Of a stretch of DNA of 64,000 bases, positions 428 to 19,565 are shown piece after piece (within the stretch, counting starts at the first letter, position 1; each line of letters starts with the position of its first letter). The position numbers and the translations under genes were made by a program. Source of the stretch: Campylobacteraceae bacterium (GTDB taxonomy: Bacteria > Campylobacterota > Campylobacteria > Campylobacterales > Sulfurovaceae); NCBI GenBank assembly GCA_027056485.1, contig JALUKQ010000088.1:1-64000 (forward strand), in the 5' to 3' direction. The notes under the pieces are model-generated. The model saw only the letters and a list, made by a program, of their open reading frames with translations, did not search any database and had not been told where the DNA came from.

Positions 428-459
428 ATTGTAAAGAAGAAACATGAACGCTATATGAA
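428..459 (-). promoter_or_regulatory. Direct-repeat OmpR-type site S1: TTCATA-N5-TTCATG-N9-TACAAT
   Basis: Minus strand TTCATATAGCGTTCATGTTTCTTCTTTACAAT upstream of the ytfJ-like gene. Confidence 0.65.
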
Positions 460-502
460 CTTAACACAAAATCTATAGAAAATAGAAAAGGATACTCTAT
501 GT

Positions 503-536
503 AGGTAATATCCAACTAATAAATCTATAGTAGAAT
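503..536 (+). promoter_or_regulatory. Direct-repeat site S5: GTAATA-N5-CTAATA-N9-TAGAAT
   Basis: AGGTAATATCCAACTAATAAATCTATAGTAGAAT upstream of DUF2202 gene. Confidence 0.55.
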
Positions 537-566
537 CCATATATAAGTTAAAAATAAAGGACTACT

Positions 567-1271
567 ATGAACAAAATTCTATTAAAAAGTATCACTATTA
601 CTCTACTTACTGCCATACTCATTGGGTGTGGTAGTGGTGGAGAAAAAGGTCAAGGTAACGGTGACATTGGAGCTTCAGATGCACTTGTAGATGCAGCCAT
701 TGCTAGTGAAAAATCAACCTTAACAGTAGAGCTTCAAGACTCTATTACTTTTATGTATAGCGAAGAGAAACTTGCGAAAGAGATATACCTTAACCTCTAT
801 GCTATTCAATCTGTTAAACAGCTGACTAATATTGCAAATAAATCAGAAGTTAAACATATTGATGCTGTTGATAGATTGGCTATCAAGTATAATCTTAACA
901 CCACACTTTATCCTGATACAACTATCCCTTATGATGCAACAGCTTTAAACACCTTTACGAGTGGTAAGTTTCCTGTAGTTGAAATTCAAGAGCTTTATGA
1001 TGTACTATATGAGAAAGGTATTCAGTCAGAAAAAGATGCACTAGAAGTAGGTTGTTTGGTAGAGGTAACTGATGTTGAAGATTTAGACAGATATATCATC
1101 CAAGCAACAGAAGCTAATGCTACTGATGTTCTTACTATTTTTAACTTCTTAAGAGATGGTAGCTACAACCACTACTGGGCATTTAACAAAGGTTTAACCA
1201 ATCAAGATATTGCTGATGGATGTTGTTCATTAGGAGCAGATTACTGTCATCCTGAATATCCACAAAAGTAG
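567..1271 (+). CDS. DUF2202 domain lipoprotein
   Basis: Lipobox LIGCGS; MYSEEKLAKEIYLNLY and LRDGSYNHYWAFNKGL motifs shared with 14125..14928 and 15102..16436. Confidence 0.85.
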   Translation: MNKILLKSITITLLTAILIGCGSGGEKGQGNGDIGASDALVDAAIASEKSTLTVELQDSITFMYSEEKLAKEIYLNLYAIQSVKQLTNIANKSEVKHIDAVDRLAIKYNLNTTLYPDTTIPYDATALNTFTSGKFPVVEIQELYDVLYEKGIQSEKDALEVGCLVEVTDVEDLDRYIIQATEANATDVLTIFNFLRDGSYNHYWAFNKGLTNQDIADGCCSLGADYCHPEYPQK

Positions 1272-1293
1272 AAGACTTTTTTTAGTTTAGCAA

Positions 1294-1325
1294 TTCATAT
1301 AAGATTCATACTCTTCCTATATAAT
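1294..1325 (+). promoter_or_regulatory. Direct-repeat site S2: TTCATA-N5-TTCATA-N9-TATAAT
   Basis: TTCATATAAGATTCATACTCTTCCTATATAAT upstream of phospholipase A gene. Confidence 0.7.
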
Positions 1326-1367
1326 TAATAAAGCCATCATTTTTAAATACTGTATAGGGAGTTTATT

Positions 1368-2246
1368 TTGAAACAAATACTTATCATGCTACTACTTTTA
1401 GTCTATACCCATGCACTACCTCCTCTTATGAAAACAGAAGAGGCCAAAAGAGAGATGGTCAACTCACTAGACTTAGATATAAATGGAACTTCTAAAGACA
1501 CCATTACCAATATTATTACCTCATCTTTCAACCTAAAATCCTATCAAGAGAACTACCTATTACCATTCTCTTACCGTTATGATAGTCAACATATTGACAA
1601 TGGTATACATGAGTCAAAAGATGTAGAAACAGAGTTTCAAATAAGTATTCGTTACGATATTAGCTCTGATTTATTTGGCTTAGGCGAAATTTATAGCTTT
1701 GGATATACCCAACGTTCATGGTGGCAGGTCTATGCTGACTCTGCATTTTTTAGAGAGTCTAATTATCAACCTGAACTCTTTGTTAAGATACCTACCTATA
1801 ACACAGCTCTAAAAAATTCTCCTATAAAAGGCTTTAAAGTAGCTGCCATACATCAGTCCAATGGTCGAGGTGGAGAGTATGAACGAAGTTGGAACCGACT
1901 GAGTCTCTCAACCTTTATGCAACATAAAAATATTATTGGAGAGTTGGAGATGTGGTACAGATTACCTGATAACATAGACTACAACCCTCAGCTACTAGAT
2001 TACTTAGGCTATGGTAAATTAAAATTTATGATGCCCTACCACCAACACCTTTTTAAACTGAATCTCACTGCTAATCCATCGACAAACAAAGGTTCTGTAG
2101 AGTTTAGCTACTCTTACCCTCTACCTGTTCGAGATGAGCCTGACCTTTTTCTCTTTTTTAAGACTTTTAATGGCTATGGAGAGAGCCTCATCGACTACAA
2201 TCAACATGTTAATAAAATCTCAGTAGGTGTTAGTATTAGTAGATAA
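1368..2246 (+). CDS. pldA: Outer membrane phospholipase A (OMPLA)
   Basis: Signal peptide, beta-barrel pattern, HQSNGRGGEYERSWNR catalytic motif region. Confidence 0.85.
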   Translation: MKQILIMLLLLVYTHALPPLMKTEEAKREMVNSLDLDINGTSKDTITNIITSSFNLKSYQENYLLPFSYRYDSQHIDNGIHESKDVETEFQISIRYDISSDLFGLGEIYSFGYTQRSWWQVYADSAFFRESNYQPELFVKIPTYNTALKNSPIKGFKVAAIHQSNGRGGEYERSWNRLSLSTFMQHKNIIGELEMWYRLPDNIDYNPQLLDYLGYGKLKFMMPYHQHLFKLNLTANPSTNKGSVEFSYSYPLPVRDEPDLFLFFKTFNGYGESLIDYNQHVNKISVGVSISR

Positions 2247-2384
2247 AAGAGTTAAATAAGAGAATTATTGTCTTTTTTAAGACGATAATAATTATTATTT
2301 AGTTAGTATTCTCACTAGCTATTAATATTTCATTGATCATATTATGATAATATATAGTTATAAAGAATAATAAGGAGCAGTGAA

Positions 2385-2681
2385 ATGAAGTCAAAATTTA
2401 TACTTATCACCATACTTTTTTCACTGTTTTTTTCTATTGGACATGACTTCATTCTCTATGAAGAGAGTAAAGATGCATGTATTGCAACTGTTCAGAAAGT
2501 AGACAATATTAACGACAGTTGCTGCAGTCACATTGCTGACCTACACAACAACTTTCACTTTTTAGGACTACTTTCATCAGAGAGTATATTATTATTAAAA
2601 AAAATAGAAACTCCTCTATCTTATAAAGAACTCTCTTCTATAGGCATAGACTCTAGTACCTTTAAGCCTCCAAGAGCCTAA
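2385..2681 (+). CDS. Small secreted hypothetical protein, first gene before RND operon
   Basis: 98 aa ORF, signal-like N-terminus, CC/H motif (SCCSHIADLHNNFHFLG), RBS aaggag. Confidence 0.55.
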   Translation: MKSKFILITILFSLFFSIGHDFILYEESKDACIATVQKVDNINDSCCSHIADLHNNFHFLGLLSSESILLLKKIETPLSYKELSSIGIDSSTFKPPRA

Positions 2682-2762
2682 GCTCTCTCTCCACATAACA
2701 GACTATTTTTTCCTAAACAGAGGATAGCTCTATCTATAATTTAAGATATCAAAGGATTTACA

Positions 2763-3083
2763 ATGAAAAATTTACTACTCATAACCGTACTATTGGGTTC
2801 TATAGAGGCTCAAGAACTGACTATAGAACAAGTTTCTAAACTACGTAACTACAACCACTCTATGTCAGGAAAATTTAGGCATAAACGAGCTTTAATAAGG
2901 ATGGCAAATATTAGCAAAGAGAAGTCCCAAGAGATTACTCAAAATGAAACAAATGAATCAGTCAAATACTCCAAGCTAAGAGACCATAATAGGCGACTTT
3001 TCTACAGCATTCAAACAAGTAGTTATCGTATTAAAATAGATGCACTTGATGGCTCTATTATAAGTAAAGAGAGGATTAAGTAA
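2763..3083 (+). CDS. Small periplasmic protein, PepSY-like C-terminus
   Basis: 106 aa; signal peptide; YRIKIDALDGSIISKERIK resembles PepSY end; ATGA-type coupling to next gene. Confidence 0.5.
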   Translation: MKNLLLITVLLGSIEAQELTIEQVSKLRNYNHSMSGKFRHKRALIRMANISKEKSQEITQNETNESVKYSKLRDHNRRLFYSIQTSSYRIKIDALDGSIISKERIK

Positions 3084-4267
3084 TGAGAACTTTTATACTT
3101 CTACCTCTGTCTCTGAGTATGCTTTTTGCTCAAATCGTTTCACTTGATGAGATGATTCAAAATGCCCAAGCACCCAAACTTATAGAGCAACGCCTCCAAG
3201 AAGAGCGACTAGCCCAAGAGTCTAAAGCCTTAGCTTCGACCCAATCAGCTCCCCTTTCACTAGAGCACTCCCTTGCACGAAATAATGGGAAAGGGTTATC
3301 AGGTTACGAACATTCTGTAGGTCTTAGCAAAGAGTTTATTTTAGGTGACATTCAAGAACTTGACCGAAAAAGAATGGGTTTAGAGAGTGAAGCCTACCTT
3401 ATTGAGCAACAAAAAATACTGATAGATGTCAACAACCGTCTGAAAAATCTCTACCATCAATACTGCCTAGATAGCGACTACCTCTCAACAGTTCAAGAGG
3501 CATACGACAAGTTCACCTTACTCTCGTATAAAAAGCAACGAGCCTTTGAAGAGGGAGAGATTTCTAAAACAGAACTTCTCCAGATTGAGCTTGAGCGTAG
3601 CCGTTTAGAAATAGAACTAAACAAGTATAGTCGTCAAAACAATAATGAAAAGAGACTACTTCTTTCGCTAACAACATTACCTAAAGAAGCATCACTTTCA
3701 TGTCAAGATACCTACCCCATTCAAAAGGGTATCAGCAGTACAAACGAGCAACCATCATTAGACCAAGAGGCGTACCAAAAACGCATAGAGAGTACCCAAG
3801 TGGGACTCAAACGTTATAACCAAAAGATAGAGAGTGTTGAGGTCTCTATGGGCTATACCAAAGAGTTGGAAAATGATATCTATACTATAGCACTATCTAT
3901 TCCTTTAAACTTTAGCTCAAATAAGTCAGAATATGAAAAAGCTGCCCTCCTACACCAATCTTCAGCACTGAGTCTCCGATATGAAGAGCAGAAACAAGAA
4001 AAAGTACGACAAATAACGGCACTAGAGCAACAACTTAGCAGTCGCTACCAGACCATTCAAGCTCAGCAGCAAAATATTGACAACTACAAAAACAATCTAC
4101 TAAGCATGATGAAAAAAAGTTATGACTACGGAGAGAGCTCCGTTATCGAATACCTTTTAAGTCAACAGAAACTCTACACGTTAGAACAAGAGCTACTTAA
4201 AGAGAAGAAAGATTACTATCAAACACTCTTTAAGCTCTATAGTATATATGAAATCAAGGAGAAATAA
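3083..4267 (+). CDS. TolC/CzcC-family outer membrane efflux protein
   Basis: Coiled-coil OEP pattern, position before adaptor and RND pump. Confidence 0.85.
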   Translation: MRTFILLPLSLSMLFAQIVSLDEMIQNAQAPKLIEQRLQEERLAQESKALASTQSAPLSLEHSLARNNGKGLSGYEHSVGLSKEFILGDIQELDRKRMGLESEAYLIEQQKILIDVNNRLKNLYHQYCLDSDYLSTVQEAYDKFTLLSYKKQRAFEEGEISKTELLQIELERSRLEIELNKYSRQNNNEKRLLLSLTTLPKEASLSCQDTYPIQKGISSTNEQPSLDQEAYQKRIESTQVGLKRYNQKIESVEVSMGYTKELENDIYTIALSIPLNFSSNKSEYEKAALLHQSSALSLRYEEQKQEKVRQITALEQQLSSRYQTIQAQQQNIDNYKNNLLSMMKKSYDYGESSVIEYLLSQQKLYTLEQELLKEKKDYYQTLFKLYSIYEIKEK

Positions 4268-4269
4268 AA

Positions 4270-5340
4270 ATGAAAAATTTTTTAATAATAACCACACTTA
4301 TAACAGCCATGGAAGCCACACCTATTGTGCTAACTCCACAACAACAAGCTGACTGGAATATTCAAACCCAAACACCTAAAAACTCAAAACTTTTAAGCAT
4401 AGGTAAATGTATGGCAGAGGTGGTAACACCTCCTCAACTACTCCACACCATCTCTTTGCCATTTGAAGCACAGGTAAAAAAACTCTTTGTTGCCAATTAC
4501 GAGAGTATCAAAAAGGATCAACTTTTAGCAGAGGTAACAGGAAAAGATTGGATAGAGTTACAACAACGTTTTATTGCCGATGCCATAGAGCTTAAACATC
4601 ATGGTCATATTGCAGAGCGTAAAAACCGACTCTGTAAAGAGGAGATTATTCCTCAAAAAGAGTGTACAGCTTCCAATGCCGAGTACAAAGCAGATAAGAT
4701 AAAAGTCTCAGCATCTAAAGCACTCTTAAGAAGCTATGGTGCTGACAAAAACCTTATCAACAACCTCTTTGAATATCTAAAGATTACACCGACTATGACT
4801 ATTCATGCTAATGGAGCAGGACGTATAATTCAGCTCAATGCCCAAACAGGGAAGAGTATCTCTCCTAGTGAAGCTCTCTTTGTAACACAAAAAGAGGGAG
4901 CCTTATGGCTAGAGGCAAACATGTTGGCATACAAGTCTACTCACCTTGATGATAAAGTAAATGTTCATATTAACTTTAACCATCAAACATTTGAGAGTAA
5001 ACTACTGCTTCATGCACCCACTATTAAAGCTGATGACCAGACTCAGAAGGTACGTTTTTCACTTCCAAAAAGCTCAAAATTTCTAACAGGAATGAGAGGA
5101 ACCGTTAAGATTAGTATCGATAAACCTACTTTAAAAGTATCTAAAAAATCTGTTATTAGTTACAATGATGAAGAGATAGTATTTGTCAAAGATGCTAAAG
5201 GCTACTCACCTGTTGCTATTACCATTTTAGGGGAAGATGAAAAGTTCTATTATCTTAAAGATACACCAATACTTCATGCACCTATCGCAACTACTTCTAT
5301 AGCTATATTAAAGAGTTTAATGGAGGGTCAAGATGAATAG
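4270..5340 (+). CDS. RND efflux periplasmic adaptor (CusB/CzcB type)
   Basis: HlyD/CusB-like order, operon context. Confidence 0.85.
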   Translation: MKNFLIITTLITAMEATPIVLTPQQQADWNIQTQTPKNSKLLSIGKCMAEVVTPPQLLHTISLPFEAQVKKLFVANYESIKKDQLLAEVTGKDWIELQQRFIADAIELKHHGHIAERKNRLCKEEIIPQKECTASNAEYKADKIKVSASKALLRSYGADKNLINNLFEYLKITPTMTIHANGAGRIIQLNAQTGKSISPSEALFVTQKEGALWLEANMLAYKSTHLDDKVNVHINFNHQTFESKLLLHAPTIKADDQTQKVRFSLPKSSKFLTGMRGTVKISIDKPTLKVSKKSVISYNDEEIVFVKDAKGYSPVAITILGEDEKFYYLKDTPILHAPIATTSIAILKSLMEGQDE

Positions 5341-8300
5341 TTTAATCAGTTTTGCCCTCTCTCAGAGGATATTTTTTGTTATTTTAGCACTAACCATTTT
5401 AGGCTTTGGAATTAAATCATATAATGAACTTCCCATCGATGCCTTTCCTGATATTTCACCTACACAGGTGAAGATGATTGTTAAATCTGATGGAATGACC
5501 CCTTCAGAGATAGAGTCTCGTATTGCCATTCCTATCGAGATGAATATGGCTGGGATTCCCCATAAGAGCCTTATGCGTTCAACCTCAAAATATGGTCTTT
5601 GTGACATCACCATCGACTTTGAAGAGGGAACCGATATATATTGGGCAAGACAGCAAGTAAGTGAGCGTCTGAGCGACATAAAAGATGACCTCCCTAACAA
5701 CATCCAAGGGGGACTTGCACCCATCTCCACACCTCTGAGTGACATTTTAATGTTTACCATCGAATCTGACACCCTCAGTCTGATGGAAAAAAGAACCCTG
5801 CTTGATTGGATTATCTCTCCAAAAATTCGTTCCGTTGCAGGAGTAGCTGAAGTTAATGCTTTGGGTGGAAAGGTTAAGACCTACGAAGTGATTCCTAACC
5901 TTGAGCATATGCGAACATTAGGTGTAACGCTAGAAGATATTATCAGCACTCTTCAAAAAAACAATAAAAATGGAGGAGCAGGACGGGTAACCCAAGGGGT
6001 CGAAGCCATTCTCGTACGAAGTGTTGGAAAACTTAACTCTCTCTATGACATTGAAACTCTCTTTGTAAAAAAGAAAGGGAACCGTATTGTCAACATCTCC
6101 GATGTAGCAGCCGTACAGATAGGACATATCACACGTGCTGGATTTGTAACTAAAAATGGTCAAGGTGAAGCCGTACAAGGTTTGGTTTTAGGGCTAAAAG
6201 GAGCCAATGTTGCAAAAGTACTCGATGGAGTCAAAGCTGAATTAAAAAAACTTGAAGCGATGCTCCCTGAAGGAACCTCTATTGAGATTTTTTATGACCG
6301 AACCGAACTGGTCAATCTGGCAACTGATACCGTAAAAAAAGCATTGGTCGAAGCAACCATTTTAATTTTTGTGATTCTATTGCTACTCTTAGGTAACCTT
6401 GCTTCAGCTTTCTCTGTGGCACTTATTTTACCATTTTCTCTGCTTATGAGTTTTATGGCAATGCAGTACTTTGGGCTAACAGCCAACCTAATGAGCCTTG
6501 GAGGACTCGCCATCGCCATAGGGATGCTGGTCGACTCAGCCGTGGTGATGGTTGAACACATTACAGCTGAACTGGGTAATCCAAAGAGGCAACATGAACA
6601 TAAATTAGTCATTATTCGTAATGCAGCCATCGAAATGGCTCCATCGATTACTACAGGAGTACTGATTATTATCATTGTCTTCATGCCTCTGTTAACCCTT
6701 GAAGGATTAGAGGGGAAACTTTTTGCACCTGTGGCACTGAGTATTGTCTTTGCACTTTTTAGTTCACTTATTTTAGCATTGACCCTCATTCCCGTACTTA
6801 GTTCATTTATTTTAAAAAAGCGACCAGACAAAGAGTCTTGGCTCATAGGTAAACTCATCATTGCTTATCGTCCTCTCTTAGGTTTGGCATTACGCTACTC
6901 TAAAAGTCTGGTTGCAGTAGTGTTACTTATTTTTGCTTACTCACTCTATCTTGCTAACGAAACTGGAAAAACCTTTATGCCTACCATGGATGAGGGGAGC
7001 ATTATTATTGGGGTCGAGATGTTACCGTCAATTTCACTCGAAGAGAGTCGTGAGCTTAACCTCAAAGTACAGCAAAAACTCCTTAAGGAAGTACCCGAGA
7101 TTAAAGATATTATCGCCCGAACAGGAAGTGATGAACTCGGACTCGACCCGATGGGACTTAATGATACAGATACATTCTTAGTACTTAAACCCAAAGAGGA
7201 GTGGCGTACTCCATTAAAAGAAGCACTCATTGGAGAGATTCGGAAAGTACTAGATGAAATGGTTGGGATAGAGGCTGGATTTACCCAACCTATAGAAATG
7301 AGGGTATCTGAGATGCTTACAGGTGTTCGTGGTGACTTGGCAGTGGATGTTTTTGGAAATGACAACGACGAGCTAGAACGTATCGCGCAAGAGATAAAGA
7401 CCGTACTAGAGGATACTAAAGGTAGCTCTGATGTCTATAAAAAAGCAAACGAAGGTGTTGCCTACTTTGAGCTAACGTTTAAACACAAAAATATGGGTTA
7501 CTATGGGGTAAATCAAGATGAGATTAACCAGTTTCTTAACACCATGGTGACAGGAAGCTCTGTGGGGATTATCCAAGAAGGTATGCGTCGCATTGACTTA
7601 GTCGTCAAAGGGGAAGAAAGCTTACAGAACTCACTGGACAAGATTAGACATCTATACTTCCCCCTTCATACAGGGGAAAGTGTGGCACTAAGTCGCTTGG
7701 TTGAGTTTAAAAAGAGTGCTGGTCCCGTACAGATAGAACATGAGAATGGCTACCGAAAAACAGTGGTACAGAGTAATGTTGATGGGCGAGACTTGGTAGG
7801 TTTTGTCGATGAAGTCAAAGCAAAAATAGAACAAGAGGTGAAGCTTCCAGCAGGATACTACCTTAGTTTTGGTGGAGAGTTTGAGAACCAACAACGAGCA
7901 GCAGCACGACTACAGCTTATTGTACCCATTGCTCTCTTCTTAGTCTTTATAATGCTCTTTATCTCATTTGGTTCTATCATGCAAGCCTTAATTGTCTTTA
8001 TGAATGTTCCTATGGCATTGATTGGTGGATTTATGGGACTCTATTTTAGTGGAGAATACCTCTCTGTTCCTGCTTCAGTTGGGTTTATTGCTCTACTTGG
8101 AATTGCAATGCTTAACGGGGTGGTGATGGTCAACTACTTTAACTACCTTGTTAAGCGTGGTACTAGTATACGTGATGCCGTAATGGAAGGAGCTATCAAA
8201 CGGCTTCGACCTGTTTTGATGACAGCACTCATCGCTGCTTTTGGTTTGGTCCCCTTGCTTTTTGCTACAGGACCTGGTTCTGAAATACAAAAACCTCTAG

Positions 8301-8398
8301 CTATTGTAGTAATATCAGGACTTATAAGCTCTACTATTTTAACCTTGATTCTTCTACCTATTCTTTATCAATGGGGATGTAGAAAAAAAGAAGCGTAA
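5333..8398 (+). CDS. CusA/CzcA-family heavy-metal RND transporter
   Basis: 1021 aa; ELPIDAFPDISPTQV N-terminus, GGLAIAIGMLVDSAVVMVEH, GIAMLNGVVMVNY motifs. Confidence 0.95.
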   Translation: MNSLISFALSQRIFFVILALTILGFGIKSYNELPIDAFPDISPTQVKMIVKSDGMTPSEIESRIAIPIEMNMAGIPHKSLMRSTSKYGLCDITIDFEEGTDIYWARQQVSERLSDIKDDLPNNIQGGLAPISTPLSDILMFTIESDTLSLMEKRTLLDWIISPKIRSVAGVAEVNALGGKVKTYEVIPNLEHMRTLGVTLEDIISTLQKNNKNGGAGRVTQGVEAILVRSVGKLNSLYDIETLFVKKKGNRIVNISDVAAVQIGHITRAGFVTKNGQGEAVQGLVLGLKGANVAKVLDGVKAELKKLEAMLPEGTSIEIFYDRTELVNLATDTVKKALVEATILIFVILLLLLGNLASAFSVALILPFSLLMSFMAMQYFGLTANLMSLGGLAIAIGMLVDSAVVMVEHITAELGNPKRQHEHKLVIIRNAAIEMAPSITTGVLIIIIVFMPLLTLEGLEGKLFAPVALSIVFALFSSLILALTLIPVLSSFILKKRPDKESWLIGKLIIAYRPLLGLALRYSKSLVAVVLLIFAYSLYLANETGKTFMPTMDEGSIIIGVEMLPSISLEESRELNLKVQQKLLKEVPEIKDIIARTGSDELGLDPMGLNDTDTFLVLKPKEEWRTPLKEALIGEIRKVLDEMVGIEAGFTQPIEMRVSEMLTGVRGDLAVDVFGNDNDELERIAQEIKTVLEDTKGSSDVYKKANEGVAYFELTFKHKNMGYYGVNQDEINQFLNTMVTGSSVGIIQEGMRRIDLVVKGEESLQNSLDKIRHLYFPLHTGESVALSRLVEFKKSAGPVQIEHENGYRKTVVQSNVDGRDLVGFVDEVKAKIEQEVKLPAGYYLSFGGEFENQQRAAARLQLIVPIALFLVFIMLFISFGSIMQALIVFMNVPMALIGGFMGLYFSGEYLSVPASVGFIALLGIAMLNGVVMVNYFNYLVKRGTSIRDAVMEGAIKRLRPVLMTALIAAFGLVPLLFATGPGSEIQKPLAIVVISGLISSTILTLILLPILYQWGCRKKEA

Positions 8399-8400
8399 AC

Positions 8401-8432
8401 TGTATGGTATTGACAAATATCAATACCATGCA
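8401..8432 (+). terminator. Hairpin after RND operon
   Basis: TGTATGGTATTGA-CAAATA-TCAATACCATGCA, 13-bp stem with one G:U; weak T tract. Confidence 0.5.
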
Positions 8433-8459
8433 ATAAATAATCTCCCTACTAATAGAAAG

Positions 8460-8491
8460 GTAATATATCTATGATATGATAATTTTACACT
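8460..8491 (+). promoter_or_regulatory. Degenerate direct-repeat site S0 (possible autoregulation): GTAATA-N5-ATGATA-N9-TACACT
   Basis: GTAATATATCTATGATATGATAATTTTACACT upstream of response regulator. Confidence 0.35.
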
Positions 8492-8511
8492 ATAAAAAGG
8501 GGAAGCTTCCA

Positions 8512-9141
8512 ATGAATCGTATACTCATTTTAGAAGATGATCAAACCCTAGGCAAAAGTTTGGTTAAATATCTAAAAAAAGCAAACTATCAAATTGATTG
8601 GGCAAGAGATGGAGAAGAGGCTTTAGACTTTACCTATAACAATAGATATGCCCTCTATCTTTTTGATATTAATGTTCCTCTTATTAATGGCATTGACCTT
8701 TTAGGAGATCTACGCAATGCCGAAGATTTCACCCCTACCATTATTATCTCAGCATTGGTTGATATTGAATCTGTTACAAAAGGGTTTATGGCAGGAGCTG
8801 ATGACTACCTCAAAAAACCTTTTGACCCTGAAGAGCTTCTCATTCATATTAAAGCTAAAACAGGAGAGTTAAAACAGCAACTTCATTTTAGAAAATTTGA
8901 AATAGATATACAAAAAAATGAGATATTTAAAAATAATAAACTTCTGCAACTTGGAGAAGTACAAAAACGACTTCTTATTTCACTAATTCAACACTATCCC
9001 AACCCTGTTACGAAAGAGACTTTGCTTGAGCTACTAGAAAAACCAACCGATCTTGCACTTCGTGTCAATATTAATAAACTCAAAAAACAGTTGGGTCTTA
9101 AGATAAAAAGTATTCGTAATATTGGTTACCAAATAGATTAA
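8512..9141 (+). CDS. OmpR/PhoB-family response regulator (track start 8476 likely too early)
   Basis: MNRILILEDDQTLGKSLVKYLKK; receiver plus winged-helix C-terminus; RBS-like AAGGGGAAG precedes ATG at 8512. Confidence 0.9.
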   Translation: MNRILILEDDQTLGKSLVKYLKKANYQIDWARDGEEALDFTYNNRYALYLFDINVPLINGIDLLGDLRNAEDFTPTIIISALVDIESVTKGFMAGADDYLKKPFDPEELLIHIKAKTGELKQQLHFRKFEIDIQKNEIFKNNKLLQLGEVQKRLLISLIQHYPNPVTKETLLELLEKPTDLALRVNINKLKKQLGLKIKSIRNIGYQID

Positions 9142-9160
9142 GCATAAAACTATTTTACAA

Positions 9161-9192
9161 TTCATATAACGTTCACACTAACAAAGTAAAAT
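9161..9192 (+). promoter_or_regulatory. Direct-repeat site S3: TTCATA-N5-TTCACA-N9-TAAAAT
   Basis: TTCATATAACGTTCACACTAACAAAGTAAAAT upstream of DUF4405-like remnant. Confidence 0.65.
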
Positions 9193-9448: not shown

Positions 9449-9480
9449 TTCATAAAAACTTCATAATTTATTTTTATAAT
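9449..9480 (+). promoter_or_regulatory. Direct-repeat site S4: TTCATA-N5-TTCATA-N9-TATAAT
   Basis: TTCATAAAAACTTCATAATTTATTTTTATAAT upstream of multiheme cytochrome. Confidence 0.7.
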
Positions 9481-11257: not shown

Positions 11258-11276
11258 ACTCTTTTAACTATCGAAC

Positions 11277-11306
11277 AAGAATGGTACGCTTTTGCATACC
11301 ATTCTT
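11277..11306. terminator. Hairpin between convergent genes
   Basis: AAGAATGGTACGC-TTTT-GCATACCATTCTT. Confidence 0.6.
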
Positions 11307-11410
11307 CCCTTTAGCTCCATGTTTACCATGAGAAGCATTTCTTAAAATACAGCCACTCAAAGACCATAAGGTCAAAAATATCAATATTGTTTTAATCATT
11401 TTTCATCCTT

Positions 11411-12220
11411 TTATTGTAAATATAATCCCAATCCAAAACGGAAAGTATTATCATATGAGTAGTCATCTAAACCATAAGTATAAGATGCTGTTGCAAAAAT
11501 ATTTTTATTGAAACTATAACTGTTATACCAAGTCAAACCTTCTTGAGCATCTTCATCTGGATAATTAGAACCTGTATAGTTATAAGATACTGCACTATAA
11601 AAAGATGGTGTCACAGCATAACCTGTACCTATAGAAAAAGAGCTATAGTCTTCATAATCTATCGTATCATCATCTCCACTAAAAGTATAACCTCCATAAA
11701 GAAAAATATCCTGTTTACTGTTAACAAAATAGTCATAATTTAGACCAGTAAAATAGTCATCATCTCTACTGTTGCTATTATCGACCATCTTCGTTCCTGC
11801 TGACAACTTTAGCCTAGCATTTGCTAAAGGAAAACTATAACCACCCATTAAATAGATATCATTATCACTATCTGAATTATCTTCGGTTAGGGTACTCTTG
11901 GTTGTAGAACGGCTATTTGAGATGGAGATATCCCAATTGTGATAACGATAGTTAGCAAAAAGGTCAACATATTCATCATCTTCATACTCGTCATCTCGTT
12001 GAATGCTACTACCTACTTTCAAAGTTACTGCACCCCAATAGTCAGAATTGGATGATTTTTTACTGATATTAACAGCACAACCATTTTTATCTACAAAGGC
12101 ATCAAAGGGAGTATTAGAACAACGATCAATTGTATCTTCAACACCATCAATATCATTATCTTGAAATGCAAACAGAGAAGAGGAGAGCAGAAGTGTTAGA
12201 AACACGGTTTTATAATACAT
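11411..12220 (-). CDS. Thrombospondin type 3-like Ca-binding repeat plus outer membrane beta-barrel protein
   Basis: DNDIDGVEDTIDRCSNTPFDAFVDKNGC followed by alternating aromatic beta-strand pattern; paralog of 17135..17920. Confidence 0.75.
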   Translation of the reverse strand: MYYKTVFLTLLLSSSLFAFQDNDIDGVEDTIDRCSNTPFDAFVDKNGCAVNISKKSSNSDYWGAVTLKVGSSIQRDDEYEDDEYVDLFANYRYHNWDISISNSRSTTKSTLTEDNSDSDNDIYLMGGYSFPLANARLKLSAGTKMVDNSNSRDDDYFTGLNYDYFVNSKQDIFLYGGYTFSGDDDTIDYEDYSSFSIGTGYAVTPSFYSAVSYNYTGSNYPDEDAQEGLTWYNSYSFNKNIFATASYTYGLDDYSYDNTFRFGLGLYLQ

Positions 12221-12243
12221 ATTAAATCCTTTAAACTATAATT

Positions 12244-12265
12244 TGAGAGCAGAAAACTGCTCTCA
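12244..12265 (-). terminator. Intergenic hairpin (attenuator/terminator)
   Basis: TGAGAGCAG-AAAA-CTGCTCTCA perfect 9-bp stem. Confidence 0.5.
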
Positions 12266-12279
12266 TCGTAAACAATGAG

Positions 12280-12882
12280 CTATCGGTTATGACCTATACC
12301 CTGTCCTCCTTGTCGTTGCCCTTGTTGCATACTTCCAACTCCTGAACCATCACGAAGATGTTGTTGAATACCTTGGTTAACACCTCTTTGTTGAGGAGCT
12401 TGACTCCTATGACTTTCTATCTGTGCTGTCTGATGTGTCTCTAACTCTGTTGCATCAATCATACTATCACCATTGATATCGATGCTAGCAAAATCAGGTG
12501 CATCATCAGCATTCGCAAGAAGTCTCCCTTCTGCACTATTTTCAGCCAATCTATCAGCTCTTACTGCATCAAACTCTGCTTCACTTATAAGCCCATCACC
12601 ATCCGTATCAAAATCAATAAGTTTTGGTTGATTTGCAAGGTTTCCACCACCTTGTCCACTACCCAGTCCTACTGGATTAGCTTGGCGTGATACTCTTAAA
12701 GCTTCCAATTCATCACTACTCATACTATCAACACGACTTAACATCTCTGTTCTGTAATCAGCTTGCTCATCTACAGCGACTGTTCCTCTAAGCTCTATTA
12801 ACTCTTCTGTTGTCATAGAGGTAAAATCTGTTGCCATTAAGCCTAATGTCAATAAACCTAAAGTTAAAACTGTCTTTTTCAT
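12280..12882 (-). CDS. Secreted EF-hand domain protein (track start 12921 likely too early)
   Basis: DTDGDGLISEAEFD and DINGDSMIDATELE EF-hand loops; MKKTVLTLG signal peptide; -10 at 12938-12943 fits start at 12882. Confidence 0.75.
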   Translation of the reverse strand: MKKTVLTLGLLTLGLMATDFTSMTTEELIELRGTVAVDEQADYRTEMLSRVDSMSSDELEALRVSRQANPVGLGSGQGGGNLANQPKLIDFDTDGDGLISEAEFDAVRADRLAENSAEGRLLANADDAPDFASIDINGDSMIDATELETHQTAQIESHRSQAPQQRGVNQGIQQHLRDGSGVGSMQQGQRQGGQGIGHNR

Positions 12883-12937
12883 AATAAATCCTTTTATATT
12901 ATTAATTTTTCTAAAAGTCAACCCTTTAGATAAGAAA

Positions 12938-12969
12938 ATTATAGAGTAAGTTTGTTACTTATTTGTTAC
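12938..12969 (-). promoter_or_regulatory. Direct-repeat site S9: GTAACA-N5-GTAACA-N9-TATAAT
   Basis: Minus strand GTAACAAATAAGTAACAAACTTACTCTATAAT upstream of EF-hand gene. Confidence 0.7.
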
Positions 12970-13029
12970 TTTAAGAAACATTTTTATTGGAAAATAAATA
13001 TTTTTAAAAGTATAGTTGTAAATTAATAT

Positions 13030-13125
13030 TATTGATAAAAAGATAAGATAAGTAACCCTCCCTCATCCTAAGGGAGTATAGGGGGAAAGCAGATAAGAGG
13101 TAGAGTTACTTTGGAATTAAATTCC
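13030..13125 (-). ncRNA. Candidate small RNA with regulated promoter and terminator-like hairpin
   Basis: -10 TATTAT at 13132-13137; 5' hairpin GGAAT-TTA-ATTCC; outer stem AAGTAAC/GTTACTT; inner CTCCCT/AGGGAG; T-rich tail. Confidence 0.4.
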
Positions 13126-13131
13126 ATAGAA

Positions 13132-13163
13132 ATAATACAATACGAATGTTAACGCAATGTTAA
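13132..13163 (-). promoter_or_regulatory. Direct-repeat site S10: TTAACA-N5-TTAACA-N9-TATTAT
   Basis: Minus strand TTAACATTGCGTTAACATTCGTATTGTATTAT. Confidence 0.65.
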
Positions 13164-14068
13164 TTCTTTTTCAATCCTCTACCCATTCCTTTAAAACCTT
13201 GTTGAGGATAATTATCGAACATCCAGTTAGCAATAGTTTCTAACTCTTCAGGAGTCACATTACCTTTTTGAGATGGCATAAGACCAAAACGTTTAATCTT
13301 CTGAGGCATACATATCGCTTTAGCTTCAGAAGGATTAACAACATAATCTTTAATAAACGTAACGGCTTCAGTTTTATCACTATAGCTCATTTTTAAGTGT
13401 CTCATAACTCCATTAAGTGCTGGGGCAACAACTGTTGACATATCTTGTGTTTTACCAAGTGTATGACAAGATATACACTTCTGAGTAAATAGCTCTTTAC
13501 CCTTACTATCTGGAGTAACTGCTACACTCTTTTGTGCCATTTTTTGAGCTTTTGGCTTCATGGTTGCTAGTTTTAAAAGTGTTTCAAATTGCTCAGGGGA
13601 GAGAACATCTTGAATATCATAAATACATTGTAAGTGTGCTTTGGTTAAATCGGTACGGAGTTTAGAGATTTTCTCTACCAATTCATATTGAGTTTTTGGC
13701 TCTTTATGCTCTTCTAACATTGCTTTAGCAAGTTCACTTTCCATTGATTTAATCTCTTTTGCTACTTTTGCAGCTACAGGAACCGTAGTATTTTTCATTT
13801 TAATCAATTGGTCAAGTTGCTCTTTAGAAAGGTTGAGTTTATCACTCTGTGGGTGAAAGAGTGAAACACCTACCAAGAAAGGTAGGTTTTGGTTAATCAT
13901 AAAATAATCTTTTGGAAAAGCTTCTTTCTTGGCTCGATAGAAAGGTGATTTCTCCCCTGCCATCTGAGCCAATTTTTTAGCTCCTTCACCTTTTTGCATG
14001 TTGGGTGCTGCCATAAGGCTGGTCATGAGGGTTAAAGATAAAGTTGTTAAGAGTGCTATTTTTTTCAT
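13160..14068 (-). CDS. Spy/CpxP-like helical domain fused to cytochrome c
   Basis: LNLSKEQLDQLIKMKN...LSPEQFETLLKLA helical repeat plus CISCHTLG heme motif and distal Met. Confidence 0.65.
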   Translation of the reverse strand: MKKIALLTTLSLTLMTSLMAAPNMQKGEGAKKLAQMAGEKSPFYRAKKEAFPKDYFMINQNLPFLVGVSLFHPQSDKLNLSKEQLDQLIKMKNTTVPVAAKVAKEIKSMESELAKAMLEEHKEPKTQYELVEKISKLRTDLTKAHLQCIYDIQDVLSPEQFETLLKLATMKPKAQKMAQKSVAVTPDSKGKELFTQKCISCHTLGKTQDMSTVVAPALNGVMRHLKMSYSDKTEAVTFIKDYVVNPSEAKAICMPQKIKRFGLMPSQKGNVTPEELETIANWMFDNYPQQGFKGMGRGLKKN

Positions 14069-14096
14069 TATAAATCCTTTTTTAGTTTATAAAAAG

Positions 14097-14128
14097 ATTC
14101 TAGCACTACTGTATTAACTCAATGTTAA
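14097..14128 (-). promoter_or_regulatory. Direct-repeat site S11: TTAACA-N5-TTAATA-N9-TAGAAT
   Basis: Minus strand TTAACATTGAGTTAATACAGTAGTGCTAGAAT upstream of 13160..14068. Confidence 0.65.
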
Positions 14129-14928
14129 TTTTTACCACGTCCATTTCCATTGCTATTGTTTCCTTTTCCATTACTATTCATATTTTTATTTCCACTATTT
14201 CCCTTTTTATTTTTATTTCCATTTTTATTTTCTTTTCCATTCTCATTAGTTGGATAGTCAAGGTGACAATAGTTAACATGTCCTATGGTTCCAAGAGAAC
14301 AACAACCCTCTTCCATACCTAAGTTTTTTAAACCTTTATCAAATGCCCAGTAGTGATTATAGCTTCCATCTCTCAAAACTTTAAATGCCTCGACAACATC
14401 TTCTGCCTCAGATGCTTCTGCCACATCAATAAAATAATCTAAATCATCAATATCAGTAACCTCTACCATACAACCAACCTCTAAAGCATCTCTTTGAGAA
14501 TCAATTCCTTTGTCATATAAAGTATTATAGAGCTCTTGAATAGCAGGGATATCATACTCTCCACTTGGCATATCATAAACATCAGTATCTCTATCTGCAC
14601 TTGGAGTAGAAACATTAGTAAGATCATCAGAACTTAGTTCATATCTATTAACAATATCTCTAACAATTCCTATATGTTTAATTTCTGATTTTTCTGAAAT
14701 ATTTTGAAGTTGATTAATTTCAATATCATTTTCATCTAAATGATAATTATAAAGATTTTGATATATATCATAAGCAAGTCGCTCTTCATTTCCCATATAG
14801 GCTATAGCATTTTTTAATTCTGGCGTTAAGGTTGATTCTGCATAGTTTTCAAGATTAAATCCATTGCCATTTGATTGAGCAAACATAAGTGTTGTTAAAA
14901 GTCCTAAAGACAAAACGGTTTTTTTCAT
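14125..14928 (-). CDS. Secreted DUF2202 protein with Asn/Gly/Lys-rich tail
   Basis: AYMGNEERLAYDIYQNLY, GSYNHYWAFDKGLK; C-terminal NGKENKNGNKNKKGNSGNKN repeat. Confidence 0.85.
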   Translation of the reverse strand: MKKTVLSLGLLTTLMFAQSNGNGFNLENYAESTLTPELKNAIAYMGNEERLAYDIYQNLYNYHLDENDIEINQLQNISEKSEIKHIGIVRDIVNRYELSSDDLTNVSTPSADRDTDVYDMPSGEYDIPAIQELYNTLYDKGIDSQRDALEVGCMVEVTDIDDLDYFIDVAEASEAEDVVEAFKVLRDGSYNHYWAFDKGLKNLGMEEGCCSLGTIGHVNYCHLDYPTNENGKENKNGNKNKKGNSGNKNMNSNGKGNNSNGNGRGKN

Positions 14929-14980
14929 AAGTAAATCCTCTTTTTATAAAAATATTTCCCAATAATTATTAGGTTATAGG

Positions 14981-15012
14981 ATGTTATCCTATGTTTATTA
15001 CCTAAATATTAC
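14981..15012 (-). promoter_or_regulatory. Direct-repeat site S6: GTAATA-N5-GTAATA-N9-TAACAT
   Basis: Minus strand GTAATATTTAGGTAATAAACATAGGATAACAT. Confidence 0.6.
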
Positions 15013-15101
15013 TTGTTAATAGAAAAAAGAAGAGGGAGAGTCGATAAATAGAGTAGCATCATCTACTACTCTATTTTATATACATAGGAGACTAAATTTT
15101 A

Positions 15102-16436
15102 TTATTCGTTATCTGATCCATGCTCAGTTACAGGGTAGATACCATCTTTATTTGTTAAAAGAGTATCACCTTCTACATAACATCCGTTCTCTACACCAGC
15201 ATTTTTAAGACCTTTATCAAATGCCCAATAGTGATTATAACTTCCATCTCTAAGTACATTAAATGCTGCAACCACATCTGTTGCATTTGACTCTTCAGCT
15301 AAAGTAATGTACTTATCTAAATCTTCTACATCAGTAACTTCTACCATACATCCTACCATTAGTGCTTCTGTCTTAGATACCATACCTTTTGTATAAAGAG
15401 TATTATAAAGTTCTTGAATAGCTGGAATATCATATTCTCCACTTGGCATACTTTCAAATGTTACATCTCTATCTGCTACACCTTCTGAAACATTGGTTAC
15501 ATCTTCTGCTCCAAGTGCATATCTTTTCACTAAATCTTGGACAATTCCAACATGTTTAACTTCTGATTTCTCAGAAATATTTTTAAGTTGCTTTATCTCA
15601 TCATCATTCTCTGTTATATGATAAGTATAAAGATTCTGATAAACATCATATGATAAACGCTCTTCATTACCCATATATGCTAATGCGTCTTTTAAATCTT
15701 GTGTCAGTAGTGAAACAGGGTATTGAGAAAGATCAAACTCTCCATCTTGAGAACCTTCAGTTTCATTATTCTCTCCATATCTTGGTCCATTACCATAAGA
15801 ACCCCTGTTATCATTAGTTTCACCTACAGGTTCATCTTCATGTCCTTCATCTGGTCTTTTACCTTCATTCCACTCTCTTTGACTATTATCAAAGTGATCA
15901 TTTGCATTATCCTCTGAAACATCAATTAGACCATCATAATCTCTATCTAATGAGTGCTTGTCACCATTATCAATAAGTTCAATCAAACTACTTTCATTAT
16001 GCTCTGCGATTGATGTCTCTTCTATATCTTCTAATCCAGCAACAACATTTTCAGGAATAATAATACCATTAGAGACATTTCCATCAACATCTAAAGCTTG
16101 AAGTGTTCTAAGTAATAGAGTCTCTTGTTCTTCGTCTCCTGCAGATAAAGTCGCTGGTGTTACAAGACCTTCTTCTGTCGGTGCTACTTCTCCTAAAAGT
16201 AAGTTACCAATATATAGTTTTACTTTATCACCATTTTTATATTGAAATCGTCCAAATGCATCTGTTGTTCCATTGAGTCCAGAAGTAGTATTGTAATCTA
16301 CATTGGCTACAGCAGCATCAATAAAGTAACCTGTTAATGATTCTGTAGAAGAATCGGTTGAAGAACTACTTCCACATCCTACTAAAAGTGCTGCAGTTGC
16401 AAGTGATATGCTGCCTAATGTTAATGTTTTTTTCAT
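15102..16436 (-). CDS. DUF2202 lipoprotein with extra N-terminal domain
   Basis: Lipobox LVGCGS; Ca-loop-like DRDYDGLIDVSED; C-terminal DUF2202 motifs. Confidence 0.85.
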   Translation of the reverse strand: MKKTLTLGSISLATAALLVGCGSSSSTDSSTESLTGYFIDAAVANVDYNTTSGLNGTTDAFGRFQYKNGDKVKLYIGNLLLGEVAPTEEGLVTPATLSAGDEEQETLLLRTLQALDVDGNVSNGIIIPENVVAGLEDIEETSIAEHNESSLIELIDNGDKHSLDRDYDGLIDVSEDNANDHFDNSQREWNEGKRPDEGHEDEPVGETNDNRGSYGNGPRYGENNETEGSQDGEFDLSQYPVSLLTQDLKDALAYMGNEERLSYDVYQNLYTYHITENDDEIKQLKNISEKSEVKHVGIVQDLVKRYALGAEDVTNVSEGVADRDVTFESMPSGEYDIPAIQELYNTLYTKGMVSKTEALMVGCMVEVTDVEDLDKYITLAEESNATDVVAAFNVLRDGSYNHYWAFDKGLKNAGVENGCYVEGDTLLTNKDGIYPVTEHGSDNE

Positions 16437-16468
16437 ATTTAATCCTTGTTCTTTGTTTTATAGAGCGT

Positions 16469-16500
16469 AGTTTAACGGAGTTTTATTACCTAAATATTAC
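16469..16500 (-). promoter_or_regulatory. Direct-repeat site S7: GTAATA-N5-GTAATA-N9-TAAACT
   Basis: Minus strand GTAATATTTAGGTAATAAAACTCCGTTAAACT. Confidence 0.6.
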
Positions 16501-16531
16501 CTGTATTAAAAATATTAATAATTACAATAAG

Positions 16532-16563
16532 GTAACTAATAGGTAATAAAACTATGTTACACT
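16532..16563 (+). promoter_or_regulatory. Direct-repeat site S8: GTAACT-N5-GTAATA-N9-TACACT
   Basis: GTAACTAATAGGTAATAAAACTATGTTACACT upstream of 16647. Confidence 0.55.
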
Positions 16564-16646
16564 TTTACAATCACACCCTATTAAGCTATACTATTTATAC
16601 GCTATTAAGTGCTATTATCTTTATCTTACGATAAAAAGGAGGTTAT

Positions 16647-17138
16647 ATGAGACCCTTAAAAACTATAAGCTTACTAAGCTTACTTTTCTATTTACCGTTA
16701 TATGCTGAAGAGATTTTCACAACTGCACCAATAGTAAAACAAGAGCCTATGCCCATAAACAAAGAGGAGATAATCCTCCCTAAAGAGAGTGAGTCTGTAG
16801 TAACTCCAGCCCCTACAAGTACTACGCAAGAGCTTACTATTCAAGAGCTTATTGAACAAGTTAAAAGTGCTCCAGATGAAAGTAAAAGAGTACTAATGAA
16901 CCAGCTAAAAGTTCAACTAAAAACAATGAATCAAGAGAGTAGACATAAAGCAATAAAAGAACTTAGAAAATCTTTTATAAAAAAAGAGATGCATACTAAA
17001 CAAAAGAACCATGAAACATCTCAACATAGCAACCACCAACCAAAATTTAGACACCTCCAACAAGGAGGAAAGCATAATTCAACTCCTCAACCAGGTCGAG
17101 GTGGAGGATCTGGGCAGCAAGGAAATGGACAGAAGTGA
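16647..17138 (+). CDS. Secreted protein with His/Gln/Gly-rich C-terminus
   Basis: Signal peptide; charged helix; HSNHQPKFRHLQQGGKHNSTPQPGRGGGSGQQGNGQK tail. Confidence 0.6.
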   Translation: MRPLKTISLLSLLFYLPLYAEEIFTTAPIVKQEPMPINKEEIILPKESESVVTPAPTSTTQELTIQELIEQVKSAPDESKRVLMNQLKVQLKTMNQESRHKAIKELRKSFIKKEMHTKQKNHETSQHSNHQPKFRHLQQGGKHNSTPQPGRGGGSGQQGNGQK

Positions 17139-17920
17139 TACGACTATATATCTTTTTACTACTTATAAACATACCGATTCATGCATTTGAAGATGATGAT
17201 ATTGATGGAGTAGAAAATAGTAAAGATTTATGCCCCAATACCTCATTTGAGGATACGGTAGATGAAGAAGGATGTCCAGAGAATCAACACTACAAGGGAA
17301 GGATTACTCTATCTATAGGTAGTGATATTAATATAGATGACTCCACCACTACTGACTACAACTTCTTTAGTAACTACAACTATAAGGCATGGGATTTTTC
17401 ACTCTACAGTTCACAACAAAGCTCACTTGATACCAACAATAACGAAAGCCAATCAGCAGGAGACCTATACCTCTCTTCAAGTTACAATAAAAGTAAAGGA
17501 AACCTCTATACCAAACTAACTTTTGGAGCTAAAATAGCAACAGGAGACAATGAAATAAGTACAGGAGAGAGTGACTACTTTACCAACCTATATATAAGTT
17601 ATGCTTTCACCAATAAACTAGCCATTTTATCTTCTCTAAGTTATACACTTACAGGAGACAGTAACGAAACAACTTATAACAATCCACTAGGTTACTCTTT
17701 GGGTATTGGATACATGCTAAATGATGCATGGTACAGCTCATTAACATACCAAAATGTTGACTCTATTTATGAAGACAGTGAAAATTATCAATCAATCTCA
17801 CTCTTTAATAGCTATAACTTCAGTGATAATTTTTTTGGAACCCTTAGCTACACTAAAGGATTAGATGACCTATCTTATGACCAGACTATTTCCATTCGAT
17901 TAGGAGTTAACTTTGAATAA
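17135..17920 (+). CDS. Thrombospondin type 3-like repeat plus outer membrane beta-barrel protein
   Basis: EDDDIDGVENSKDLCPNTSFEDTVDEEGC; GTG start overlapping previous stop; paralog of 11411..12220. Confidence 0.75.
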   Translation: MIRLYIFLLLINIPIHAFEDDDIDGVENSKDLCPNTSFEDTVDEEGCPENQHYKGRITLSIGSDINIDDSTTTDYNFFSNYNYKAWDFSLYSSQQSSLDTNNNESQSAGDLYLSSSYNKSKGNLYTKLTFGAKIATGDNEISTGESDYFTNLYISYAFTNKLAILSSLSYTLTGDSNETTYNNPLGYSLGIGYMLNDAWYSSLTYQNVDSIYEDSENYQSISLFNSYNFSDNFFGTLSYTKGLDDLSYDQTISIRLGVNFE

Positions 17921-18542
17921 ACTGCTACTCCTAGAGGATACTCCAAACTTAGCTAAAACCCTTATAAAATACCTCAAGTTTAACGACTATGAGGTTGACT
18001 GGGCAAAAGATGGAGAAGAGGCTGTAGAGCTAAGTTATCAAAACAAGTACCTACTCTATCTTTTTGACATCAATGTTCCTAGACTCAATGGTATTGATTT
18101 ACTTAAGTCTCTACGAGATGCAGAGGATTTTACTCCTGCTATTATTATCTCTGCCTTGGTTGATATTGAATCTGTAACAAAAGGTTTTATGGCAGGAGCT
18201 GATGATTATCTAAAAAAGCCTTTTGACCCAGAAGAGTTACTACTGCGTATTAAAGTTAAAACTGCTTCACTCCAAGAAAGTATCACGTTTAAGGAATATG
18301 AACTTTATCTACAAAGCAATGAAATTTGCTATAAAGGAGAACCACTCTTCCTAGGTACTGTTCAAAAGGGTATTTTTATGGCTCTTTTAAAAAACAACCC
18401 TAACCCGGTCACCTATGATGAACTACTCAATCTCCTTGACAAGCCTAGTGAAAATGCTCTCCGTGTCAATATAGCAAAACTTAAAAAAATGCTCAACCTT
18501 GAGATAAAAAGCATACGAGGAATTGGTTATAAAATTATATGA
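17913..18542 (+). CDS. OmpR/PhoB-family response regulator
   Basis: MNKLLLLEDTPNLAKTLIKYLKF; receiver nearly identical to 8512..9141. Confidence 0.9.
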   Translation: MNKLLLLEDTPNLAKTLIKYLKFNDYEVDWAKDGEEAVELSYQNKYLLYLFDINVPRLNGIDLLKSLRDAEDFTPAIIISALVDIESVTKGFMAGADDYLKKPFDPEELLLRIKVKTASLQESITFKEYELYLQSNEICYKGEPLFLGTVQKGIFMALLKNNPNPVTYDELLNLLDKPSENALRVNIAKLKKMLNLEIKSIRGIGYKII

Positions 18543-19548
18543 AAAGGAATCACTACTAAAGAGTTTTAGCCTCTTTTTTATTATGATGGAGCTTTTTTTA
18601 GCTTTTATTTTTTACAACTACTACAAAATAGAAGAGGAGCATCTAAGTGAGCAACTCTTTTTAGAAATGAAAAACTATAGCTTTAACTTTGATGATGAGC
18701 GATTCAATATGGCAATCGTCCCCAAAGCAGAAGAAAATCAACTCTATGAACTCTATTTTGATGAGCAAAACCTCTACATCTTAACCCCTTTTCTAGAGCA
18801 GAACAGCACTTTAGCCATTCTTTATCCCCTCTCTTCTTATCAACAAAAGCTTAATGAAGTTAGAAAAGATATCCTCCTACAAGCCTTACTGCTATCACTC
18901 ATCTCAGCTTTTCTCTCTTTTATCTTCGCCCTCTACGCCCTCTCTCCTATTCAGGAGTCTTTGAGACTCTTAGAAGAGTTTATTAAGGACATCATTCATG
19001 ACCTTAACACGCCCATAACCTCCATACTTATCAATCTAAAAATGATGGAAAAGAGTGAAGAGACAGAGAGTATAGAGCAGAGTACCAAAGCCATCTCTAT
19101 GCTCCATAAAAACCTTGATATCTATCTAAAGAACAGTAAACTAGAGAGTGAAAAGTTTATGCTTAGTGAAGTGCTCAATGAACAAGTAGAATTTTTTCAA
19201 CCTCTCTATGATCACTTAAACTGGATACTTAAGTTAGAAGATAGAGTCATCTATAGTAATAAGAATGCTCTTAGTAGAATTATTTATAATTTGTTGAGTA
19301 ACGCATGTAAATACAATACTAGTAATGGATTTATACACATAGAAAGCAGAAATAAAAAACTAATTATTAGTAACCAAAGCCATGGTATTAAACATCCAGA
19401 ACGTATCTTTGAACGTTTCTATAAAGAGAGTGAACGAGGTTTAGGAATTGGTCTTCATATTGTTGACAAACTAACCAAAGAGTTGGAGATTGAAAAACAA
19501 CTCTATATAAAAGATAATATTGTCTCGGTTGAGTTAACATTAAATTAA
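18523..19548 (+). CDS. Sensor histidine kinase
   Basis: Two TM segments; H-box DIIHDLNTPITSIL; N box YNLLSNACKYN; GLGIGLHIVDKL; probable TTG start overlapping the regulator. Confidence 0.9.
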   Translation: MVIKLYEKESLLKSFSLFFIMMELFLAFIFYNYYKIEEEHLSEQLFLEMKNYSFNFDDERFNMAIVPKAEENQLYELYFDEQNLYILTPFLEQNSTLAILYPLSSYQQKLNEVRKDILLQALLLSLISAFLSFIFALYALSPIQESLRLLEEFIKDIIHDLNTPITSILINLKMMEKSEETESIEQSTKAISMLHKNLDIYLKNSKLESEKFMLSEVLNEQVEFFQPLYDHLNWILKLEDRVIYSNKNALSRIIYNLLSNACKYNTSNGFIHIESRNKKLIISNQSHGIKHPERIFERFYKESERGLGIGLHIVDKLTKELEIEKQLYIKDNIVSVELTLN

Positions 19549-19565
19549 CACTAATTCTATATAAT
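19534..19565 (+). promoter_or_regulatory. Direct-repeat site S12: TTAACA-N5-TTAACA-N9-TATAAT, reading into convergent genes
   Basis: TTAACATTAAATTAACACTAATTCTATATAAT overlapping the kinase stop codon. Confidence 0.55.

Follow-up and report, generated by a model that had tools for sequence, protein, structure and literature searches.

A fixed hexamer-N5-hexamer-N9 promoter geometry in Sulfurovaceae, probably read by OmpR/PhoB-type response regulators through different hexamers

The first 64,000 nucleotides of contig JALUKQ010000088.1 (assembly GCA_027056485.1, a Campylobacteraceae bacterium of the Sulfurovaceae; hereafter the window) contain a series of putative promoters built on one plan: two hexamers five base pairs apart, that is, a direct repeat with an 11-bp period, followed after exactly nine base pairs by a -10 element of the form TAnnnT. 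This fixed promoter grammar is real and non-random. In our opinion these elements are probably sigma70 promoters in which tandem OmpR/PhoB half-sites serve in place of a -35 element, and they probably belong to at least two regulons that share the geometry and differ in the hexamers. Two compact OmpR-type response regulators, RR1 and RR2, are encoded among the sites (Table 1).

Specificity and clustering of the geometry

The preliminary description of this DNA listed thirteen sites. Re-read from the sequence, twelve conform exactly to hexamer-N5-hexamer-N9-TAnnnT; the thirteenth, given as 8460-8491, was out of register and belongs at 8449-8480 (CTAATA-gaaag-GTAATA-tatctatga-TATGAT), where its -10 ends 31 bp upstream of the real RR1 start codon at 8512. 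Most window sites lie about 25-60 bp upstream of an ATG. Site 16532 is an exception, being 84 bp away, and so is site 19534(+), which faces the convergent gene 19619-19993(-) and points into its 3' end. The latter is a perfect TTAACA site (19534-19565) behind which no product was recognised.

In the 5.1 kb of intergenic DNA of the window, exact 6-mer repeats in this geometry occur 8 times, where 0.8 are expected (at most 4 in 60 Markov shuffles), and repeats with one mismatch 25 times, where 7.9 are expected. It could be argued that such repeats only reflect an AT periodicity common to Campylobacterota sigma70 promoters and that no dedicated activator reads them. Indeed, when any hexamer is allowed, repeats of period 10-11 are in excess in intergenic DNA whatever the spacing, an excess that we take to be the AT periodicity background of these promoters and that makes the scan unusable as stand-alone evidence. 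Once the hexamer class is fixed, however, only N5/N9 is enriched: with KTMAYR, a class derived from the window's own sites, positions 1-20000 contain 10 matches at N5/N9 and 2 at N5/N11, no other geometry having more than 1. The matches are also clustered. A search of the 2.48-Mb genome for KTMAYR-N5-KTMAYR-N9-TAnnnT returned 24 matches (0 for a reversed control pattern), 10 of which fall within 428-19565, where 0.19 would be expected (binomial p=1.3e-15); window positions 20001-64000 contain no N5/N9 match. As to the unrelated genomes proposed earlier as a control, several other Campylobacterales genera, for example g24 and g31, have only 0-2 matches per genome, as the preliminary description would predict. 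Taken with this evidence, an unassisted AT signal seems to us very improbable.

Because KTMAYR was drawn from window sites, relatives provide the independent test of the geometry. Across 424 kb of other Sulfurovaceae, in stretches selected solely by the presence of an RR1/RR2 ortholog, there are 55 matches at N5/N9, 18 at N5/N11 (in our view a TATA register echo) and 0-3 at other geometries. Upstream of DUF2202 genes (34 reading frames at 30 loci) the N5/N9 geometry occurs in 21 cases, and 34 other geometries give 0-5. The pattern is present in all 151 of 151 genomes of the same family.

Hexamer dialects and regulator classes

The layout is that of a class II promoter: two direct repeats of 11-bp period cover the -35 region, and their distance to the -10 is constant. 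If the -10 spans -12 to -7, the first hexamer would occupy about -38 to -33 and the second -27 to -22, and the two tandem half-sites would stand in for the -35 of a sigma70 promoter. A phosphorylated regulator dimer, bound side by side, would then hold RNA polymerase. Regulator binding, phosphorylation, activation and the signal are what we infer from sequence; the geometry, its clustering and conservation, and its association with regulator clades are observed. In the first proposed regulon, GTAACA/GTAATA sites would belong to the RR2-kinase system, which would control its own operon and activate DUF2202 and EF-hand/DUF1104-like proteins; RR1, a paralog with 63% identity to RR2 and nearly the same recognition helix, itself lies behind a GTAA site. 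In the second, the TTCATA sites upstream of the YtfJ-like gene, OMPLA, a gene remnant and the nonaheme cytochrome would be boxes of the DccR type, read most likely by a class C regulator encoded outside the window, on contig C167.

The preliminary description had proposed one undescribed OmpR-type regulon. Its OmpR/PhoB-type design stands; a single regulon read by RR1 and RR2 is not supported, because the hexamer dialects go with regulators of different clades, whose recognition helices also differ. Genomes with the RR1/RR2 clade have 2.9 GTAAYA sites each, those without it 0.83 (p=3e-9), and within the genus the figures are 2.2 and 0.21 (p=1e-4), all in counts that ignore kinship; control TTCAYA counts differ little (2.13 with the clade, 1.69 without). 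At orthologous loci of relatives, GTAACA-type sites precede EF-hand/DUF1104-like genes, DUF2202 genes (those at RR2 loci among them) and the first gene of the RR2-kinase operon, in the last case as GTAACA-N5-(G/T)TAACA. We infer that this operon is autoregulated. Class B regulators, which are related to RR1/RR2, have a GTAAYA site 5-10 bp upstream of their own ATG. Class C regulators have a TTCATA-type site upstream of their own gene in some genomes and none in most flanks examined, and TTCAYA sites number 2.24 per genome with class C and 1.37 without (p=6e-5, again ignoring kinship). The tree splits a clade of classes A and B from a class C clade, and the recognition helices consistently differ, being ALRVNIxKLK in A and B and SLRAYInTLR in C.

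Our reading of the TTCATA sites as most probably DccR-type boxes comes from genomes resembling Campylobacter. The C167 regulator has its best matches there, at 51% (G254) and 48% (G242). In G254 the class C gene, next to a kinase, is flanked by a hemerythrin-like gene on one side and groEL/groES on the other, and another two-component pair is close by, an arrangement that resembles the dccRS-cprRS region of C. jejuni. The corresponding locus numbers, cj1223c-1222c and cj1227c-1226c, are given in a review (PMC9449129). In such genomes TTCACA-N5-TTCACA-N9-TA sites lie about 30 bp upstream of small exported proteins. These surroundings and these sites are the reasons for our reading, and the class C regulator on C167 is the likely reader of the window's TTCATA sites. 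TTCAYA-N5-TTCAYA-N9-TA occurs both in the window and in Campylobacter-like genomes; the published consensus of the C. jejuni DccRS regulon is reportedly WTTCAC-N6-TTCACW (Wosten, 2010). At loci L328-L336 of G242, G254, G187 and G195, exported proteins of ~100-140 residues are repeatedly found 26-36 bp behind the TTCACA form.

One may still suppose that RR1 and RR2 jointly read every hexamer variant and that the dialects are mere degeneracy of KTMAYR. All dialects do cluster within 20 kb of both regulators, whose recognition helices are nearly alike, and hybrid sites occur. In our opinion this is nevertheless unlikely, given that TTCAYA sites are nearly as common without RR1/RR2 and GTAAYA sites are not, that TTCACA boxes co-occur with a DccR-type regulator in Campylobacter-like genomes, and that the RR2 loci of relatives resolve mainly to GTAACA. 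Another possibility is a split between the paralogs, RR1 having drifted to TTCATA and taken its neighbours as a regulon while RR2 keeps GTAAYA. Four TTCATA-type sites do lie within about 8 kb of RR1, but its recognition helix is like that of the classes which read GTAA, the site in its own promoter is of the GTAA type, and its closest relative, in L151, sits among GTAACA sites, so we regard such a split as improbable.

Our preferred reading of at least two regulons is not free of difficulties. The GTAAYA association across genomes carries the reservation about kinship already stated, and G094 and G100, genomes of the genus with the RR1/RR2 clade, have no GTAAYA site. The link between TTCAYA and class C lacks significance when only the genus is considered (p=0.5), and the class C gene on C167 has no strict site in the flank examined. 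Hybrids (GTAACA/TTAACA and TTAACA/TTCATA) demonstrate that the dialects are not sealed off from each other. Finally, a strict site precedes only 3 of 28 nonaheme cytochrome and 1 of 9 OMPLA orthologs, the window included.

DUF2202 genes are recurring targets throughout the family, in all three dialects. As a tentative generalization, and one we would not quite bet on, paralogous OmpR-type regulators of Sulfurovaceae, and perhaps of Campylobacterota, may share the N5/N9 frame and differ only in the hexamer, which a small number of residues in the recognition helix would determine; exported DUF2202 proteins may have moved between regulators by a switch of dialect with the frame kept. Such a cis-code for response regulators is testable, since it predicts the hexamer jointly with the regulator clade and the recognition helix, and it concerns a group with little experimental data on regulation. 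It would also attach DUF2202, a large uncharacterised exported family, to two-component control and place regulons of the DccR type outside Campylobacter, in free-living Sulfurovum.

The regulators and comparable systems

The assignment of both regulators to the OmpR family, made in the preliminary description, is borne out by structure. The AlphaFold2 model of RR2 (mean predicted local distance difference test score 90.5) has a sheet, three helices and a C-terminal hairpin in OmpR winged-helix order, and the top Foldseek matches are full-length OmpR/PhoB regulators, with domains packed differently (template modelling score about 0.55). By Pfam the C-terminal domain is weak, at 23.7 and 24.5 bits against a cut-off of 26.2 (26.1-26.5 in a second scan). 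The receiver domain (PF00072) scores 86 bits in RR1 and 83 in RR2, and residues E8, D9, D52, S80 and K102, which include the phospho-acceptor Asp and the conserved Lys and Ser, are invariant across 27 orthologs. The nearest named regulator, at 68%, is from a Sulfurovum metagenome-assembled genome, and the organism is accordingly taken as a relative of Sulfurovum.

RR1 and RR2 reach no curated NCBIfam equivalog cut-off. A CusABC-like gene set adjoins RR1; the idea of RR1 as a heavy-metal regulator of the CusR/CopR kind was rejected, as TIGR01387 gives 87 bits for RR1 and 76 for RR2 against a cut-off of 279. Membership in the DccR clade was rejected as well: RR1 and RR2 form a separate clade of shorter proteins (Shimodaira-Hasegawa-like approximate likelihood ratio test 96-100), 30-36% identical to the putative DccR ortholog of the Campylobacter-like genome, and have GTAAYA boxes.

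To call the grammar itself undescribed, as was done at first, is too strong, for promoters with 11-bp repeats where the -35 would be, a short and constant distance before the -10, have been published. The E. coli Pho box lies over the -35 region. It consists of two 11-bp direct repeats (PMC2648988). PhoB recognises a 7-bp repeat, CTGTCAT, and its hexamers, kinase and targets differ from those of the window system; RR1 and RR2 score only 73 and 84 bits where the PhoB equivalog requires 296. In Streptomyces, the OmpR-type DNA-binding domains of AfsR, a Streptomyces antibiotic regulatory protein (SARP), sit on 11-bp direct repeats, with the upstream repeat over the -35 and the 3' repeat of SARP boxes 8 bp from the -10 (PMC10936776). 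Unlike RR1/RR2, SARPs have no receiver domain, come from another phylum with other sequences, and use 8 rather than 9 bp. PceP (RR2 of Sulfurospirillum), an OmpR-family protein judged to be an activator, was bound in electrophoretic mobility shift assays to short direct repeats that cover the -35 with a period of 11 bp (PMC7755780). It is from Campylobacterota like the window regulators, but has CTATA units in three copies and serves organohalide respiration genes. A further parallel is DccRS of C. jejuni, where 11-bp-spaced TTCAC repeats likewise replace the -35, with the same N9 to the -10 in a Campylobacter-like genome. Its targets are periplasmic and membrane proteins (PMC9449129); only the TTCA-dialect part of the window system matches it, and the target genes differ. 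The kind of system is thus known, and on present comparison the GTAAYA regulon and the compact RR1/RR2 subfamily appear to be new. Our literature search found no B. subtilis PhoP paper with a TTAACA box.

Targets and other features of the window

Table 1. Promoter sites and regulator genes in the window
Feature	Coordinates	Strand	Position or remark
TTCA-dialect site TTCATA-N5-TTCATG-N9-TACAAT	428..459	-	5' of YtfJ-like gene 3-398 (-)
GTAA-dialect site GTAATA-N5-CTAATA-N9-TAGAAT	505..536	+	5' of DUF2202 gene 567-1271
TTCA-dialect site	1294..1325	+	5' of OMPLA (PLA1) gene 1368-2246
GTAA-dialect site CTAATA-N5-GTAATA-N9-TATGAT	8449..8480	+	5' of RR1
RR1, compact OmpR-type response regulator	8512..9141	+	no adjacent kinase
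TTCA-dialect site	9161..9192	+	5' of frame-broken membrane gene remnant, about 9223-9430
TTCA-dialect site	9449..9480	+	5' of nonaheme cytochrome 9512-11257
GTAA-dialect site GTAACA-N5-GTAACA-N9-TATAAT	12938..12969	-	5' of EF-hand/DUF1104-like gene 12280-12921
TTAA-dialect site TTAACA-N5-TTAACA-N9-TATTAT	13132..13163	-	opens on hairpin-forming stretch; no open reading frame before 12938
Mixed site TTAACA-ttgag-TTAATA-N9-TAGAAT	14097..14128	-	5' of Spy/cytochrome c gene 13160-14068
GTAA-dialect site	14981..15012	-	5' of DUF2202 gene 14125-14928
GTAA-dialect site	16469..16500	-	5' of DUF2202 lipoprotein gene 15102-16436
GTAA-dialect site GTAACT-N5-GTAATA-N9-TACACT	16532..16563	+	5' of operon 16647-19548
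His/Gln-rich small exported-type protein	16647..17138	+	first gene of RR2 operon
RR2, compact OmpR-type response regulator	17913..18542	+	
Histidine kinase (HisKA, HATPase_c)	18523..19548	+	paired with RR2
TTAA-dialect site TTAACA-N5-TTAACA-N9-TATAAT	19534..19565	+	no same-strand gene downstream

That the targets are mostly secreted or envelope proteins agrees with a simple hydropathy rule, by which 15 of 19 targets against 23 of 66 other genes appear exported in this genome, and 39 of 46 against 146 of 399 in relatives. Matches outside the window lie mostly 25-36 bp upstream of an ATG, and their targets, named by reading the sequences, include NosL-like proteins, a TonB-dependent receptor, a thioredoxin-like protein and a probable phosphoethanolamine transferase. 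DUF2202 was found in 90 of 151 genomes; our literature search found no paper on it. Envelope stress or metal as the signal would fit the Spy-like, EF-hand, DUF2202 and CusABC-like targets and neighbours, but this is a guess.

Individual promoters are conserved to different depths. In G089 the promoter of the Spy/cytochrome c gene (14097) has 94.8% identity over 77 bp. Orthologs of the nonaheme cytochrome have TTCATA repeats upstream in G130 and G004, and in G110 a form with one mismatch. OMPLA of G120 is preceded by a near-copy of site 1294; these two sites are kept only in close relatives, more distant orthologs being without them. The nonaheme cytochrome with its promoter (9443-11258) is 99.6% identical over 1816 bp to G110 (L289), with no flanking match in the stretch compared, which is either a recent transfer or a binning artefact. 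In many relatives this cytochrome stands directly beside a same-strand regulator related to RR1/RR2 (G129:C5, G080:C2, G149:C50, G115:C127, G147:C11, G130:C141 and G106:C76).

An Rfam search of window positions 1-22000 gave no match. Behind the TTAA site 13132 there is a long hairpin at 13030-13131(-) (-25 kcal/mol, z -2.6) with T-rich sequence close by and no open reading frame; it would be either a small RNA or a terminator for the cytochrome gene. The short frameshift-broken frame at 9223-9430(+), which lies behind TTCA site 9161 between RR1 and the nonaheme cytochrome, resembles a membrane protein and is probably a decayed gene, DUF4405-like by eye.

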